Source of the DNA: Anoxybacillus tengchongensis
Lineage (GTDB): Bacteria; Bacillota; Bacilli; Bacillales; Anoxybacillaceae
Reading direction: 5' to 3'
NCBI RefSeq assembly: GCF_014201585.1
Contig: NZ_JACHES010000013.1
Span: forward strand, 1 to 58,004
DNA length: 58,004 nt
A program made the position numbers and the translations under genes. Positions within the stretch are counted from its first letter, which is position 1, and each line of letters begins with the position of its first letter. Below are positions 129 to 32,190 of this stretch, piece after piece. The notes beneath the pieces were generated by a model that worked only from the letters and a program-made list of their open reading frames with translations, was not told where the DNA came from and did no database searches.

Positions 129-193
129 TTACGAGACCTCCTTAATGTTGATTTCACCACTAACATTATTGCCAGGATCTCGTCAGTGCTTTC
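121..193 (-). repeat. Inverted repeat spanning the ISL3 transposase start
   Basis: The plus-strand segment 121-138 (gaaagcacttacgagacc) matches the reverse complement of 176-193 at 16 of 18 positions. An inner stem pairs 143-149 with 162-168. A read-through transcript of the minus strand would place the GTG start in a paired arm and the Shine-Dalgarno in or beside an internal loop. The outer arm also contains the stop codon of the upstream HD gene, so the element's outer end probably lies at about 190-205. It could equally act as a terminator for the HD gene, although it lacks a clean U-run. Confidence 0.55.
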
Positions 194-1109
194 TCTTTTT
201 TGTCACTAAATCACAAAATTTGGTGATGAACCAAAATTCTAAGGAATCAATAAATTCAATAACAATTTTATTTAATGCATATCTTTCCCTAGATATTTGG
301 CCAGATAAAAAATCTTCCAAGAAATTATCTTTGATTTCATTGAAAAGACAATTGATTATTCTCTCTAAATTATCAATATTCTTATAATTAGGGTTAGATG
401 TTATACCTTCTAATATTAACGAAAGTATAGTATTTGAGTTTAAAATATTAGCAAATTGATTTCTACTAAAGAAACCCACCATGTCTTTTATATCGTAGAT
501 GGCATTAGAGATATCATCTGCGAGTTCAATTATATATTCTTCAATAACAGGTTGATTGTAAGTCTGGAGAATTTTATTTACAAAAATAGATGACTCCTGA
601 TAATATCCCTTAATTAAATTCGCTTCTTCTTCCCTTTTAAGAGGTATTACATTTTTATGTTTAAGAAGCGCGGCTACAGTTCTTAATGTAACATTATGAG
701 ATTCTTCAGTTACAATTCTTATTGTTTGAGCATTGGATTCAAATCCCCCAAAGCATTTCATTATATTATCAAGACTTCTTTCGGCACTATGACCAAAAGG
801 AGGATGTCCTATATCATGCGCAAAGGTTGCCGCATGAATAAGATTTAAATCAATAGTTGGTAAATCATTTTTTAACAAATGATTGTTTACTCTTTCAGTA
901 ATTATTTCTGCGATTTCGTTGACTTCCAAAGAATGAATCAATCTATTCCGTAAATTATGGTTATGAGGAAATGGAATAAGTTGTGTTTTAGTATGTAAAA
1001 TACGAAAGTATGGTGATCTTAGTATTCGTTGGTAATCGCATCTAAACTCTGAAATCGAAATCTTTTCTTGTTCTGGTGAAAATCTGCTTTTGTCATATTT
1101 TTTATACAT
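183..1109 (-). CDS. HD-domain dNTP triphosphohydrolase (dGTPase-like), short form, probably 3'-truncated
   Basis: Predicted to hydrolyse dNTPs, classically dGTP, to deoxynucleoside and triphosphate in the cytosol. Family residues are visible: R-N-R-L-I-H59-S-L-E-V, the HD pair H98-D99, H102, H107 and E110 in F-A-H-D-I-G-H-P-P-F-G-H-S-A-E, F-G-G-F-E-S-N-A-Q near 120-128, and the distal Asp in E-L-A-D-D near 195-199. All metal and catalytic positions are therefore present in the first 205 residues. Family members usually run about 430-500 residues; this one has 308 and ends inside the inverted repeat of the neighbouring ISL3 element, so I infer loss of the C-terminal region. The ATG at 1109 follows GGGAGAGG with short spacing. 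Upstream are a terminator, a guanine riboswitch and a consensus promoter. Some relatives are anti-phage nucleotide-depletion enzymes (established); that role here is speculation. Confidence 0.8.
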   Translation of the reverse strand: MYKKYDKSRFSPEQEKISISEFRCDYQRILRSPYFRILHTKTQLIPFPHNHNLRNRLIHSLEVNEIAEIITERVNNHLLKNDLPTIDLNLIHAATFAHDIGHPPFGHSAERSLDNIMKCFGGFESNAQTIRIVTEESHNVTLRTVAALLKHKNVIPLKREEEANLIKGYYQESSIFVNKILQTYNQPVIEEYIIELADDISNAIYDIKDMVGFFSRNQFANILNSNTILSLILEGITSNPNYKNIDNLERIINCLFNEIKDNFLEDFLSGQISRERYALNKIVIEFIDSLEFWFITKFCDLVTKKRKH

Positions 1110-1149
1110 TAACCTCTCCCACTCTACAAAAATAGTTTTCTGAATAAAT

Positions 1150-1214
1150 AGTAAAAACCCAAGAGGATAGGTTTCTATTAATGTTTCACGAGTGAAAACC
1201 TATCCTCTTGGGTT
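1150..1214 (-). terminator. Intrinsic terminator of the guanine riboswitch leader
   Basis: Perfect 19-bp arms at 1156-1174 and 1196-1214 enclose a 21-nt loop. On the minus strand the hairpin is followed by TTTTTACTATTT. The loop side of the 5' arm (1197-1188 read on minus) is exactly complementary over 10 nt to the 3' strand of aptamer helix P1 (1326-1317), which provides the competing antiterminator. The terminator sits 40 nt before the HD gene, so it can only control that gene. Confidence 0.88.
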
Positions 1215-1321
1215 GATGTCTTCGATACTATATGTACAACTTATAAATAGGTATATGAATCCCGTCCATATCCCTTCATCTTTCTTAATTACTGAATAAA
1301 ATGGACTTAGATTCACTTTCA

Positions 1322-1388
1322 CTCGTAGTCCAGCAATTTAAGGTTGCCGGGTAGAAACTCTCAGACCATATTTCTGAGGATATACGAG
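1322..1388 (-). promoter_or_regulatory. Purine riboswitch aptamer, guanine class
   Basis: On the minus strand P1 pairs CTCGTA (1388-1383) with TACGAG (1327-1322). P2 is closed by CCTCAGA/TCTGAGA with loop AATATGG. P3 is CCGGCAA/TTGCTGG with loop CCTTAAA. J2/3 reads GTTTCTACC. These are the canonical purine-riboswitch core and kissing loops. The discriminating J3/1 base is C (1328), which in the characterised family specifies guanine/hypoxanthine; U would give adenine. J2/3 has no 2'-deoxyguanosine-class changes. Ligand binding would hold P1 and release the terminator, so guanine should switch the gene off. Confidence 0.93.
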
Positions 1389-1422
1389 CAAGTTTTTATT
1401 AAAATATTCATTTTTATTAATA

Positions 1423-1451
1423 ATTATATAGATTGTAAAAATTTATGTCAA
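1423..1451 (-). promoter_or_regulatory. Consensus sigma-A promoter of the riboswitch-HD gene unit
   Basis: Minus strand TTGACA (1451-1446), 17-bp spacer, TATAAT (1428-1423): both hexamers match consensus perfectly. Predicted transcription starts near 1416, about 28 nt before the aptamer. A perfect promoter fits a unit whose output is set by attenuation. Confidence 0.85.
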
Positions 1452-1721
1452 CAAAAAATGGAATTATAACCCGTGGTACTAGATAAAATCGAGTAAGCAT
1501 AAAAATAGCCCTTGCCTGCGGATCTCCTGTAGAATGAAAGTGCTACCAAACATTCGAAAGGAGAATCCCCATGCAAGAGCACTTTCATTGTTTGAGTCAA
1601 GACTTTGTGGGAGATTTTTTTCTCGACCGATTTTATTGGTTATATATGGTTTTATGGACTTGTTTCATGTAAGCGCTTTTATCTACTCTTATCCTGTAGG
1701 TATGTGCCTATATCTGTGTTT

Positions 1722-3072
1722 TTAAAAACCTTTCAATGCTTGTAATACCTCGTAAATCGGTGTTCCTGAAGACTGATCGGTGTTCCTGAAGACTGACGGA
1801 AATACGGAATGTTGTCCCGAATCACTTCCTTCATTCGAGATGAGACGTGTTTCATTGCCTTTTTCACGATCGCTTCTCGTTTCGTTTCTTCTCGCTCTTC
1901 CACATGACATATGACTCCACGGCGTGTACGAATCGGTAACGTATCTTTGATGACGGTCATGGTCCGTAACATCGCATCAATTCCTGCATCCCTCCAACTT
2001 CGACCGTTTTTACTTCGCTTCGCAAACACATGCATCGTTCTTTCTGCACTGCCCATCGCTCGCATGTTCGTTGTATCTATCCCTTTTTCCTGCAGCCATA
2101 TGCGCGATAGTCACTCAAACATCCAGGTAGCTCTTCGATCCGACGAACAAGTGCCTGTAATTGCCGTTCTTTCTCTTCGTCTCCCAGTGTTCCCACGGCA
2201 CTTGTCAGCTCTTTTCATACCCCTTCTTCATCTTGTGAAGCCAGTGTTTTCCGTATCGCTCGGTATCCCGGATGATCACGAAACCATTGTCGGATATCCC
2301 TTGCAATATCCCCTCTATCTCCGAAATATTCACGACAACCTGTGATCCATGGGGCACCATCTCCATTGATGACGACCCAATCTTCTAGTGGATCATACCT
2401 ATATTCTTTCACTAAGAAGCTCTCGACAGCTTCCCAGATTGGCTCATTCGTTTGATGAACATAGTAGCGTCGGTTCACCAAAGAAACTCGTTTGCCGTTT
2501 TTCTCCCATCCTTGGTGAATCGTCACAATTTTCTCTTCTTTTCCTTTCATGCGGCTTCGTTGCCGTTTGACGTATAGTCCGTCTGCCTCAATGAAAAATA
2601 CCCGACCTTTTTTCTCCATCTTGCGGTGTCCAACGACTTCAGCCTCGACAATCAACTGACGAATCGTTTCGTGGCTCATGCACGCATATCCCACCAATTT
2701 CTCTAAGGACTGGGCAGCTTGTCGATACGATGAACCTGTCACTGCCAGATGAATCGCTATTTCTTCTAACAACGGACTGACTCCATGTGCCCCCTCAAAC
2801 TGAAGAAAAGCATCCAACAAGCAGATATACTCCTGTTTTTCCCGATCGAAGTAGTAGTTCCGCTTGACTTCCAATTCCCCAAACATCGTCTGCATCCGTA
2901 TCATCCGCTTATCTTTGAGCGCGTATCGTTTTTTATCTCGTTTTTCCGCCAATGTGCGGTCGATATCCTCCAACACCTGTTGAAGCAGTTGACCATATTC
3001 TTTTTGCATATGCCGAAACAAAGATTGTTCAATGTCTTTCCATGTGACTCCATTTGTGATATAATCCTGCAT
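1722..3072 (-). pseudogene. ISLre2 (UPF0236) transposase, inactivated by three lesions
   Basis: The frame from ATG 3072 (AAAGGAG at 8 nt) encodes a recognisable UPF0236/ISLre2 transposase, with Y-I-C-L-L-D-A-F-L near residue 80 and V-V-I-N-G-D-G-A-P-W-I near 240. An in-frame TGA interrupts it at about 2216. The same frame then continues with family sequence (K-E-L-T-S-A-V-G-T-L-G-D) until a shift near 2095. A second frame carries A-M-G-S-A-E-R-T-M-H-V-F-A-K-R. A 20-bp tandem duplication at 1756-1795 then throws off the C-terminus; the ancestral ending G-T-P-I-Y-E-V-L-Q-A-L-K-G-F survives in another frame and stops at 1722. An intact family member is about 450 residues, so the copy cannot be active. 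Confidence 0.88.
1756..1795. repeat. 20-bp tandem duplication inside the transposase remnant
   Basis: The 20-base unit starting at 1756 (atcggtgttcctgaagactg) is repeated exactly at 1776-1795. Twenty is not a multiple of three, so the duplication itself frameshifts the transposase C-terminus. Identical copies suggest a recent slippage event. Confidence 0.9.
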
Positions 3073-3162
3073 GGGCTCCACTCCTTTCTTTGGTTGTTTT
3101 TTTTCGCACTTTCTACCTTACAGGAGGAGAGCCCATTTTTCATCTATTTTGCTTACGTATGT

Positions 3163-3205
3163 GACAGGTTTCTAATTTGTATAAATCAGGAACCTGTCTT
3201 CTTTT
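3163..3205 (+). terminator. Possible terminator in the 3.1-3.36 kb gap
   Basis: gacaggtt (3163-3170) pairs with aacctgtc (3191-3198), followed by ttcttttct. The 20-nt loop makes it weaker than other terminators in the window. The rest of the gap to 3363 is very AT-rich; no other gene is visible, and it presumably carries the promoter of the next gene. Confidence 0.4.
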
Positions 3206-3363
3206 CTCCCACAAATATTTTACTCATACTAAGTGTTGTTTCATAACTAAACAATATAACAAATTTTCATATAAATAAAAATTCAAAATTTTATTTACTT
3301 TTTATTACTTTTTTTTTATAATTAAGGTGTTTTATAATAAATTTTAGAAAGGAAGGATAAATA

Positions 3364-9960: not shown

Positions 9961-10479
9961 ATGTTACGAAAATGGTACGATTGGGAATGCAAGTTGTTTT
10001 ACAGCATTAATCGTTATTTTGATCGGAAATGGCTAAACGCCTATTTTCGTTCGATTACACACATCGGAGGCGCAACATTTTCAATTACAGCGGTTATGCT
10101 AGCCATTTGGTTATTGCATGATGAATGGCGCGATACTGCTATCGCAAGTGCGATCGCCTTAGCACTTAGCCATATTCCTGTCGCAATAATGAAAAAAATG
10201 TATCCTCGCAAACGACCGTATATTTCACTGCATAACACGAAAGTAACAAAAAACCCATTAACTGACCATTCATTTCCATCAGGACATACGACGGCCACAT
10301 TCTCTGTCGTTATTCCATTTTTATTATACGCTCCACCATTAATGATTTGGCTGTTGCCGATCGCATGTAGTGTCGCTGTTTCGCGCATTTATTTAGGGCT
10401 CCATTATCCGTCTGATGTGCTTGCTGGTTGTATGCTCGGTACGTTGTTTGGCGTCGCTTCATTTTCTGTCATTTTATAA
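9961..10479 (+). CDS. PAP2-family membrane phosphatase
   Basis: A 172-residue integral membrane phosphatase of the PAP2 superfamily, probably acting on undecaprenyl diphosphate or a phosphatidate/phosphatidylglycerol-phosphate-like lipid. All three motifs are visible: K-K-M-Y-P-R-K-R-P (about 75-83), P-S-G-H-T-T (about 105-110) and S-R-I-Y-L-G-L-H-Y-P-S-D (about 142-153). Hydrophobic segments lie around residues 35-50, 55-70, 115-135 and 150-170. ATG 9961 is preferred over TTG 9955 since GGGGG is 8 nt away. The glycosyltransferase gene starts 13 nt downstream, implying an operon. Substrate is unknown. Confidence 0.87.
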   Translation: MLRKWYDWECKLFYSINRYFDRKWLNAYFRSITHIGGATFSITAVMLAIWLLHDEWRDTAIASAIALALSHIPVAIMKKMYPRKRPYISLHNTKVTKNPLTDHSFPSGHTTATFSVVIPFLLYAPPLMIWLLPIACSVAVSRIYLGLHYPSDVLAGCMLGTLFGVASFSVIL

Positions 10480-10492
10480 GGGAGGAATGGGC

Positions 10493-11620
10493 ATGAAAAT
10501 TGCTTTATTCACTGACACATTCGCCCCTGAAGTAAACGGGGTAGCCCGTACATTAAAAAGATGGGTCGATTTTTTAGAAAACCACCAAGTTGAATACCGC
10601 GTTTTCGCTCCGGAAACGCGGTCAGAAGATGTTTCGACAAATTGTATTTATCACTTCAAAAGCTTTCGTTTTTTTCTTTATCCCGAATGTCGTTTGGCAA
10701 TCCCAAACATGATGACTATAAGAGAGCAGCTAGAGCAATTTCGACCAACGCTCATCCACATTGCTACTCCATTTAATATTGGTTTGTGTGGTTTGCATTA
10801 TGCCAAAAAAATGAATATCCCCTTCGTCGCTTCTTATCATACCCATTTTGATCAATACTTACACTACTACAACCTCGATTTTTTATCACCGTGGCTTTGG
10901 CGTTATATGCATTGGTTTCATCGTTCTGCCGAAAAAATTTTCATCCCTTCTGAAGAAACGCTCAATCACTTGCAACAGCGTGGCTTTACAAACTTACACA
11001 TTTGGTCGCGTGGCGTCGATTGCACAACGTTTTATCCGAGAGAAGACAACCAGCCATTTCGACAAGCATATGGCATTACTGAACCGTATATCGTTTTATA
11101 TGTCGGACGGTTAGCGCGGGAAAAAAATGTCGATTTACTCATCCAACTCGCCAAACAAATGCCATCTTCTATTCGTTGGATGATCGTTGGAGACGGACCG
11201 CTAAAAGGGCAATTACAACAAGTAGCTCCAAGCAATGTGACGTTTACAGGTTTTTTAAGCGGAGAGGCACTCGCTGAAGCATATGCATTCGCAGATGTAC
11301 TAGCATTTCCATCACCAACAGAAACGTTTGGCAATGTCGTATTAGAATCATTCGCATCAGGAACTCCTGTTGTTTGCGCAAATCGTGGTGGCGTAACAAC
11401 AATTGTGAAAGAGCAACAAACAGGTTTATTGTGCCCTCCTCATGATTTAAACGCTTGGCGAGCAGCAATTGAATATATGTTAGAAAATAAAGAAAAACGA
11501 AAACAAATGGGGAAAGCCGCTCGGGAATACGCAAAAACGAAAGACTGGAACAGCATATTCACCGAACTTCTTTCCCACTATGAACAAGTGATGCATAAAC
11601 GCGAGTCTCGTTACGCGTAA
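10493..11620 (+). CDS. GT4-family glycosyltransferase
   Basis: A 375-residue GT-B glycosyltransferase. The N-terminal acceptor domain begins M-K-I-A-L-F-T-D-T-F-A-P-E-V-N-G-V-A-R-T, typical of GT4 alpha-mannosyltransferase-like enzymes. The C-terminal domain shows Y-V-G-R-L-A-R-E-K-N (about residue 203), and the nucleotide-sugar signature P-S-P-T-E-T-F-G-N-V-V-L-E-S-F-A-S-G-T-P-V (split near residues 280-302) with the E-x7-E element. It acts in the cytosol or at the inner membrane face. Coupling with a PAP2 gene suggests glycolipid or polymer synthesis; donor and acceptor are not readable. ATG 10493 sits 8 nt after GGGAGG. Its last 10 bp are shared with asnB on the other strand. Confidence 0.85.
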   Translation: MKIALFTDTFAPEVNGVARTLKRWVDFLENHQVEYRVFAPETRSEDVSTNCIYHFKSFRFFLYPECRLAIPNMMTIREQLEQFRPTLIHIATPFNIGLCGLHYAKKMNIPFVASYHTHFDQYLHYYNLDFLSPWLWRYMHWFHRSAEKIFIPSEETLNHLQQRGFTNLHIWSRGVDCTTFYPREDNQPFRQAYGITEPYIVLYVGRLAREKNVDLLIQLAKQMPSSIRWMIVGDGPLKGQLQQVAPSNVTFTGFLSGEALAEAYAFADVLAFPSPTETFGNVVLESFASGTPVVCANRGGVTTIVKEQQTGLLCPPHDLNAWRAAIEYMLENKEKRKQMGKAAREYAKTKDWNSIFTELLSHYEQVMHKRESRYA

Positions 11621-14889: not shown

Positions 14890-14998
14890 CTCTTATCGTT
14901 CAAGGGCGTTCCCTTGCCACAGGTTAGCACCTTTTCACATACGTGACGGTTGCTGGGTTTCATCGGGCCTGTCTCCCTCCACCAACTCGGGATAAGAG
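14890..14998 (-). promoter_or_regulatory. SAM-I (S-box) riboswitch
   Basis: P1 is CTCTTATC (14998-14991) paired with GATAAGAG (14897-14890). The conserved core reads GTTGGTGGAGGGA, then CGATGAAACCCAGCAACC, then AAGGTGCTAACCTGTGGCAA. These match the S-box consensus. SAM binding should stabilise P1 and let the downstream terminator form, shutting off metK. Confidence 0.96.
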
Positions 14999-31897: not shown

Positions 31898-32190
31898 ATT
31901 GAAACCAGCAAGTGAAGGTGTCCCAATGGACTTAATAGGGAATCTGGTGCGAATCCAGAGCTGTCCCCGCAACTGTGTGCGCAGACGAAATGGAAACAAC
32001 ACCACTGTATACGTCAGCTGTTTGTGGCACGTATATGGGAAGGAATCCAAAGTAGGAAGAAGCGCAAGTCAGGAGACCTGCCTTCCTTGTATCGTTTCAT
32101 ATTCTTCGGGGATTGAGAAGATGAAACGATGGTGAAAGCACGCCTTTTTCCATCGTTTCATCCGCTCAACTAGGGCGGATTTTTATTTTT
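31898..32190 (+). promoter_or_regulatory. Cobalamin riboswitch with three-way expression platform
   Basis: Core elements: AAGGTGTCCC (about 31914), GAATCTGGTGCGAATCCAGA then GCTGTCCCCGCAACTG, and the B12 box AGCGCAAGTCAGGAGACCTG (32061-32080). The platform contains segment A (atcgtttcat, 32091-32100), B (atgaaacgat, 32121-32130) and C (a second atcgtttcat, 32152-32161). A can pair with B, or B with C (13 bp, 32120-32132 with 32150-32162). C overlaps the 5' arm of terminator stem 32160-32167/32173-32180, which is followed by a T-rich tail. So B:C acts as antiterminator and A:B frees the terminator. B12 is expected to repress. Confidence 0.92.

Follow-up and report, generated by a model that had tools for sequence, protein, structure and literature searches.

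A truncated dGTPase-type gene behind a guanine riboswitch in Anoxybacillus tengchongensis points to a cytochrome P450 operon, possibly for purine acquisition

Introduction

Why should a guanine riboswitch stand before a gene for an enzyme that degrades dGTP? This question is raised by one end of a contig of Anoxybacillus tengchongensis (NZ_JACHES010000013.1, positions 1 to 58,004, this whole stretch of 58,004 nucleotides being called the window here), where a guanine-class aptamer precedes an open reading frame (ORF) for an HD-domain protein of the deoxyguanosine triphosphate triphosphohydrolase (dGTPase) type. A preliminary description of the locus had proposed that the cell makes this enzyme only when guanine is scarce, either to recycle dGTP into guanine or as a nucleotide-depletion defense. 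Comparison with relatives, whose genomes and loci are designated below by G and L numbers, suggests a wider answer, namely that the pair belongs to an operon with a cytochrome P450 (P450). We tentatively read this operon, with a probability of about 0.4, as a guanine-repressed and P450-based system of purine acquisition, of which the window would hold the decayed front.

According to the available text of PMC9295807, guanine riboswitches commonly govern purine synthesis, salvage or uptake. Neither dGTP nor P450 is mentioned in the main text of that article as far as available, nor in the available text of PMC3766115, and titles and abstracts of the open-licence literature gave no description of a guanine or purine riboswitch joined to a P450 or dGTPase operon.

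Results

In relatives, a purine aptamer heads a P450 operon

A profile built from two P450s was run against a sample of 397 genomes of the order, no more than four candidates being scored per genome. Ten genomes hold an orthologue, at 817-920 bits with the next match at 242, and searches within families bring the orthologues to 15 genomes (8 of 19, 3 of 80 and 1 of 16, and 3 of 41 in the window's own family). In a sample of the phylum, 0 of 398 genomes gave an orthologue at 1e-70, a result that says little about absence. A purine aptamer, at 79.9-92.5 bits to RF00167, heads all 14 orthologue operons with upstream sequence on their contig, on the same strand and in four families; the fifteenth, in G420, was left out of this count, its contig beginning 156 nt before the P450 gene.

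Behind the aptamer, the recurring order is a dGTPase gene in most operons, the P450 gene (PF00067), a gene for a dienelactone hydrolase (DLH)-type protein (PF01738) whose serine motif GxSxGAT is kept in 13 of 13, and one for a major facilitator superfamily (MFS) transporter (PF12832, with Nuc_H_symport matching too). Outside the window's family, a fifth gene follows, encoding a protein of 141-160 aa with no family assignment. This protein has no useful match among PDB sequences, Pfam and NCBIfam, and its structure model is predicted to be all-beta (predicted local distance difference test score, pLDDT, 74.6), the best Foldseek match (E 3.7e-3, template modeling score ~0.4) giving no indication of function; no trace of the gene was found in L027-L029 or in the window (best tblastn E 0.11). 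The dGTPase and P450 genes are 14-29 nt apart in 9 of 9 operons, and the MFS gene overlaps the fifth one by 11-56 nt in 12 of 12 when the first start codon is used.

The dGTPase gene, whole or interrupted, comes first behind the aptamer in 11 of the 14 operons, in three families, the leader being free of inserts in ten of them and bearing a 193-nt insert in L028. It is whole in nine genomes (G025, G057, G211, G259, G280, G360, G379, G419 and G117). In L074, L080 and L081, the P450 gene directly follows the aptamer with no dGTPase gene between; the genome G404 gave no dGTPase match at 1e-20, and in G827 and G831 the gene was looked for at the operon locus only. Because these three operons keep riboswitch and P450 without the dGTPase, the P450 looks like the core of the operon, judging from gene content. 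Conversely, members of the dGTPase clade occur in 10 of the 397 genomes at 419 bits at least, the remaining six matches, under the same limit of four candidates, reaching at most 141. Nine of these ten genomes also have the P450, the tenth being that of the window with its remnant, and G404 has the P450 alone.

This conservation bears on the notion that insertion sequences (ISs) made the pairing in the window by accident, a case that the preliminary description had foreseen in the form of a lost purine permease gene and an IS-mediated deletion bringing in the dNTPase. Foreign DNA does flank the 1.25-kb native island of the window on both sides. The relatives disagree with such a history, since the dGTPase gene stands first behind the aptamer in most operons of three families and is whole in nine genomes, and the pairing is kept in another family at 38% protein identity. 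With the order conserved in other families, we reject an IS-made pairing as hardly credible.

The five genes evolve at different paces. Between L028 and L030, protein identity is 69% for the P450, 38% for the dGTPase, 38% for the hydrolase and 45% for the MFS protein. The ratio of nonsynonymous to synonymous substitutions (dN/dS), a simple Nei-Gojobori count on chosen pairs, some with high dS and none including G006, G007 or G025, is below 0.36 for all five genes in the compared pairs and lowest for the P450, the most constrained of them (0.024-0.082), against 0.18-0.28 for the hydrolase, 0.07-0.15 for the MFS protein and 0.20-0.35 for the fifth gene (seven pairs each), and 0.17-0.26 for the dGTPase (five pairs).

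Other loci served as controls. Rfam searches of 1.5-kb flanks, which are too short for an aptamer one gene or more upstream, found no purine aptamer at 20 other P450 loci, at the 15 nearest MFS loci and at 10 dGTPase loci of other clades (nine genes, L013 and L098 being one gene). A covariance model made from 13 aptamers, applied with 5 kb on each side of the P450 and MFS control loci, gave 0 of 20 and 0 of 15, apart from one match at chance level on the strand opposite to the P450 (L130, 19.3 bits, E 0.48); six of six operon loci outside the model scored 100-115 bits as positive controls. The same search at nine other dGTPase genes, with wide flanks for L031-L034 and 1.5 kb for L093-L097, gave none. 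In the genome of the window, the other four purine aptamers (L035, L036 and L037) precede genes that resemble the pur operon, adenine deaminase, guaA and an NCS2-type permease.

On mobile DNA, the P450 had no match at 1e-60 in plasmids and none in viral contigs in a scan limited to two short patterns. For the dGTPase, no phage record reaches 80% coverage; 12 plasmid records do, none with at least 60% identity.

Next to the operons of the best-populated family, a 154-aa gene of no known family adjoins the 3' side (L068:10701-11165), and most of these loci have a divergent acetoacetate--CoA ligase gene ahead of the operon (L068:2933-4912). Inspection by eye of the ORFs listed for the other families showed neither.

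The switch is predicted to be turned off by guanine

The window aptamer reaches 92.5 bits to RF00167 (gathering score 37, E 9e-16), its CTACC...GACTACG core is intact and the specificity position is a C, in agreement with the guanine class assigned at the outset; the consensus promoter described before it (TTGACA, 17 nt, TATAAT) can likewise be read in the sequence. CTACC and GACTACG form a canonical guanine core in 15 of 15 aptamers, the core positions being those that we take to be U51 and C74. With this canonical core, we reject a 2'-deoxyguanosine or xanthine variant aptamer.

The 10-nt antiterminator pairing first noted by eye (1326-1317 with 1197-1188) is an exact match, and computation of the duplex lengthens it to 19 pairs with two bulges, extending into GGATAGG of the terminator 5' arm. 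This duplex has an energy of -20.4 kcal/mol, a value that none of 300 mononucleotide shuffles reached; the 5' arm and loop of the terminator double as the downstream antiterminator half. Twelve leaders were tested in this way, L027, L028 and L029 being left out, and all 12 showed pairing between the P1 3' strand plus flank and the 5' arm or apex of the terminator. The energies lie between -14.3 and -20.4 kcal/mol, a level equaled by no more than 3 of 300 shuffles in any leader, and for 11 of the 12 the leader's own pairing is better than the mean cross-family pairing. Leaders within one family are near copies, so these duplex tests are not independent. In the fold competition, 13 of 14 leaders disfavor P1 when no ligand is present, with penalties of 0.9 to 7.7 kcal/mol.

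From these folds, the switch is predicted to be OFF with guanine. Binding of guanine would let P1 form and the terminator halt transcription. When guanine is absent, the terminator 5' arm would instead be taken up by the P1 3' strand and its flank, and transcription would run on into the operon.

Such a direction also bears on detoxification of a toxic purine analogue, in which transport, oxidation, hydrolysis and triphosphate removal would be switched ON under guanine shortage. A triphosphohydrolase, an oxidase, a hydrolase and a transporter would suit a clean-up pathway, and the distribution is patchy. A guanine analogue bound to the aptamer would, however, turn the operon OFF and not ON, and the HD enzyme is missing from three operons; we consider this explanation improbable.

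Orthologues of the P450 share an unusual I-helix

In 13 of the 13 P450 orthologues compared, out of 15 known, the I-helix reads GGHKIPQ at the position that normally holds the acid-alcohol pair for oxygen activation. Related P450 loci have [AG]GHETT in 18 of 20, L057 and L061 giving no read-out. The heme cysteine motif and ExxR are kept in 13 of 13. Among solved structures, ordinary bacterial P450s come closest, at ~190 bits, compared with at least 817 bits among the first ten orthologues. By its sequence, the P450 is a distinct and highly conserved subfamily with an unusual I-helix. Its structure model was poor (pLDDT 54.5) and was not used.

The main alternative to purine acquisition is that the operon makes a specialized metabolite derived from a purine or deoxyguanosine, an antimetabolite or a signal. 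The HD enzyme would take phosphates off a nucleotide intermediate, like OxsA in the making of oxetanocin A, the P450 would tailor this compound and the MFS protein export it, the riboswitch tying production to purine state. Besides the unusual I-helix and strong conservation of the P450, the patchy distribution (10 of the order's 397 genomes, and 8 of 19 within one family) speaks for such a pathway, and the available text of PMC8177086 and PMC7074753 provides a precedent from Bacillus megaterium, where an HD phosphohydrolase takes part in making a nucleoside antibiotic. On the other hand, the guanine-OFF logic would yield a guanine-derived product under guanine scarcity, and no self-resistance or extra tailoring gene was seen by eye in the ORF lists of four families. 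As general knowledge, it is also less usual in antibiotic clusters for the P450 to be the slowest-evolving gene. On balance, we find a specialized metabolite rather unlikely.

The transporter and the question of the substrate

Among solved proteins, those closest to the MFS protein are lactose permease and YegT, a nucleoside transporter, with a weaker match to the NorA efflux pump. The NCBIfam model NF008346, a 3-phenylpropionate MFS transporter with a cut-off of 259, gives 266.2 bits for the L028 protein and 244 for that of L030. This match, together with a DLH-type hydrolase family named for aromatic degradation, would fit a non-purine substrate such as an aromatic acid, guanine merely gating the operon as a general signal of growth state. 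Aromatic degradation, however, explains neither the aptamer, kept in 14 of 14 operons, nor the dNTP triphosphohydrolase of 11 of 14, and members of the broad MFS family turn up at 1e-50 in 89 of 397 genomes, the 15 near relatives of the transporter having no purine aptamer within 5 kb. A non-purine substrate seems improbable to us.

The window holds a truncated and decayed copy

The HD-domain ORF of the window (1109-183, minus strand, 308 aa) has 175.6 bits to TIGR01353, the dGTP triphosphohydrolase model, above the cut-off of 152.35, which bears out the earlier assignment of an HD dNTPase behind the switch; the L028 protein has 180.8 bits and that of L030 147.4, slightly under the cut-off. 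The metal-binding residues H61, H100, D101 and D200 are invariant in an alignment of eight sequences. As a separate observation, the dGTPase of G211 (L069:6045-7277) has AHDIGHPPYGH, and eight others compared have AHDIGHPPFGH.

A dNTP-depletion enzyme against phages, gated by purine state, had been the other purpose put forward at the outset. The PADLOC dGTPase model does give 191.4 bits. The anti-phage dGTPase model NF041026 reaches 154 bits, under its cut-off of 400, and the enzyme lies within a metabolic operon, is missing in three operons and stands behind a switch tied to guanine, not to infection. Judged on the enzyme and its operon, with no PADLOC scan of the neighbors, this defense reading has no support; it is very improbable and we abandon it.

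The ORF is shorter than its intact relatives (407-410 aa, the C-terminal part being whole in L028 and L030). DNA identity to L027-L029 is 99.8-100% and breaks off at 233, after 292 codons, and a search of 61 genomes, that of the window included, gave three further copies at 99% identity covering residues 1-294 of 308 only, protein matches as a whole ending at residue 293 or 294. The last residues are taken to be IS DNA from sequence matches. The native island (233-1481) is bordered by foreign DNA at both ends, and retains the promoter, the switch and ~72% of the first gene. When 4.4 kb of L028, from dGTPase to MFS, was compared at DNA level with the same genome, nothing beyond the 877 bases of the window was found, and a protein search with the P450 found no orthologue there. 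There is a small chance that the missing genes lie in a gap, since this is an assembly of 29 contigs in which the window starts at a contig end. As far as its sequence tells, the window copy is a relic, the decayed front of an operon that can no longer function.

The other copies of this family are decaying too. Four of four bear insertions, each at a different site: in the dGTPase gene, these lie after codon 292 in the window, at ~residue 347 in L027 and at ~residue 366 in L029. In L027, the P450 frame is also broken close to its start (one stop), and two transposon-sized ORFs separate the promoter from the aptamer; the promoter is identical in L029 and pushed away by insertions in L027 and L028. 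The genes of L028 are whole, and its leader bears a 154-nt insert (10876-11029) between promoter and aptamer and, within the terminator loop, the 193-nt self-complementary insert (10452-10644), whose longer loop might preserve or alter attenuation. The element that cuts the window gene (214-232) and the 154-nt insert (10876-10895) have a terminal sequence in common, GGTTCATCACCA, so a small relative of the window element may sit in the L028 leader. The near identity of the copies in two genera suggests recent transfer.

Table 1. Features of the island and its borders in the window.
Feature	Position	Strand	Evidence
Putative sigma-70-type promoter, TTGACA (1451-1446), 17-nt spacer, TATAAT (1428-1423)	1423..1451	minus	Sequence read by eye
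Guanine-class purine riboswitch aptamer	1306..1407	minus	Rfam RF00167, full model 1-102
Upstream antiterminator half, 3' strand of P1 and flank, TACGAGTGAAAGTGAATCTAAGTCCA	1302..1327	minus	Duplex with terminator arm and loop
Intrinsic terminator hairpin, then T run	~1156..1214	minus	Free energy (dG) -32.1; hairpin seen in computed fold
Native 5' part of HD dGTPase-type gene, 292 codons of ~407, H...HD...D motif	233..1109	minus	TIGR01353, PADLOC, DNA identity
Foreign ORF tail (last residues and stop)	183..232	minus	Junction; tail matches sequence repeated in related genomes
Foreign DNA upstream with ISLre2/UPF0236-type transposase frame (2215-3081)	1482..3233		Ends native island at 1481

Elsewhere in the window, a cobalamin riboswitch (31899-32099, 107.7 bits) and an S-adenosylmethionine (SAM) riboswitch (14890-14998, 71.5 bits) score above their gathering scores, and eight transfer RNA matches cluster at the contig end (57124-58003).

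Discussion

The reading of the operon as a guanine-repressed system of purine acquisition starts from its composition. Acquisition from an unusual purine source is suggested because a guanine-OFF switch precedes a symporter-like protein, an oxidase, a hydrolase and a triphosphohydrolase. Such an operon would serve when guanine is short. The MFS protein, a distant relative of nucleoside and lactose proton symporters, would import a hypothetical substrate, either a nucleoside of a purine or a purine conjugate; oxidation by the P450 and hydrolysis by the DLH-type protein would strip it down, and the dGTPase, where present, would convert dGTP to deoxyguanosine for the same pool. As to the function first proposed, a dGTPase made only when guanine is scarce agrees with a predicted guanine-OFF switch before a dGTPase-type gene, but this enzyme is not the point of the system, because its gene is the first of four or five, is missing in three operons and is truncated in the window. 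Recycling of dGTP to guanine is compatible with the operon and would be only a part of what it does.

It is also possible, albeit doubtful, that the P450, its usual pair for proton delivery being replaced, has a guanine derivative or nucleoside as substrate, the dGTPase feeding in deoxyguanosine; the operon would then form an oxidative side of purine metabolism, or else a hidden pathway to a nucleoside antimetabolite, of which the guanine riboswitch would be the one outward sign.

Several observations weigh against purine acquisition under a guanine-OFF switch. Among the leaders, the own pairing of L073 has no advantage over pairing across families, and L072 forms one cross pairing (-15.9) that is stronger than its own (-14.3); P1 of L072 is not disfavored without ligand (ddG -0.1), L072 and L073 each have a single non-standard pair among the five forced ones of P1, and the free fold of L080 and L081 lacks the downstream pairing. 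As regards the transporter, the 3-phenylpropionate name of its model would speak against a purine cargo, and the weak match to NorA makes export possible. The best NCBIfam P450 model is that of a cyclodipeptide-associated P450 (198.6, far under the cut-off of 500), and for a simple dealkylation it would be odd to find a P450 that lacks the usual acid-alcohol pair. Finally, with insertions in all four copies of the window's family, the operon may be useless or costly there.

The type of a riboswitch hints at the pathway that it serves. Because a guanine switch precedes the P450 operon in four families, it points the chemistry of this P450 toward purines, which the P450 sequence alone could not have done. 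Should the P450 act on a purine, guanine-controlled metabolism would extend beyond synthesis, salvage and uptake, and the operon allows a direct test of the role of the unusual I-helix. Taken as a whole, the gene order and its aptamer suggest an undescribed guanine-repressed way of purine handling, and illustrate how the broken remnant of a gene in one genome can reveal an operon that is conserved in others.

Comparison with known systems

Guanine-I (G-box) riboswitches (RF00167), such as those of xpt-pbuX and the pur operon, have the same aptamer core, the same terminator/antiterminator layout and the same predicted OFF direction as those described here. Compared with the usual guanine-I targets listed in the available text of PMC9295807, the genes behind the switch form a P450 operon that is mostly headed by a dGTPase gene. 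The 2'-deoxyguanosine and xanthine riboswitch variants share the three-stem scaffold of the window aptamer, but the operon aptamers lack the variant changes given in that same available text.

The dGTPases of the operon belong to the HD family of TIGR01353 and share its H...HD...D motif; they differ from its members in forming a separate clade, standing behind a riboswitch and, in the window, being truncated. With ordinary bacterial P450s (PDB 5l90 and 4rm4, which we take to be CYP109 enzymes), the operon P450 has PF00067, the heme cysteine and ExxR in common, whereas GGHKIPQ replaces the acid-alcohol motif and CIAA follows the heme cysteine. Lastly, in the oxetanocin A pathway an HD phosphohydrolase, OxsA, works on nucleotides next to a radical enzyme, OxsB, as described in the available text of PMC8177086 and PMC7074753. 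The operon reported here is without a radical SAM gene and combines its HD enzyme with a P450, a DLH-type hydrolase and an MFS transporter.

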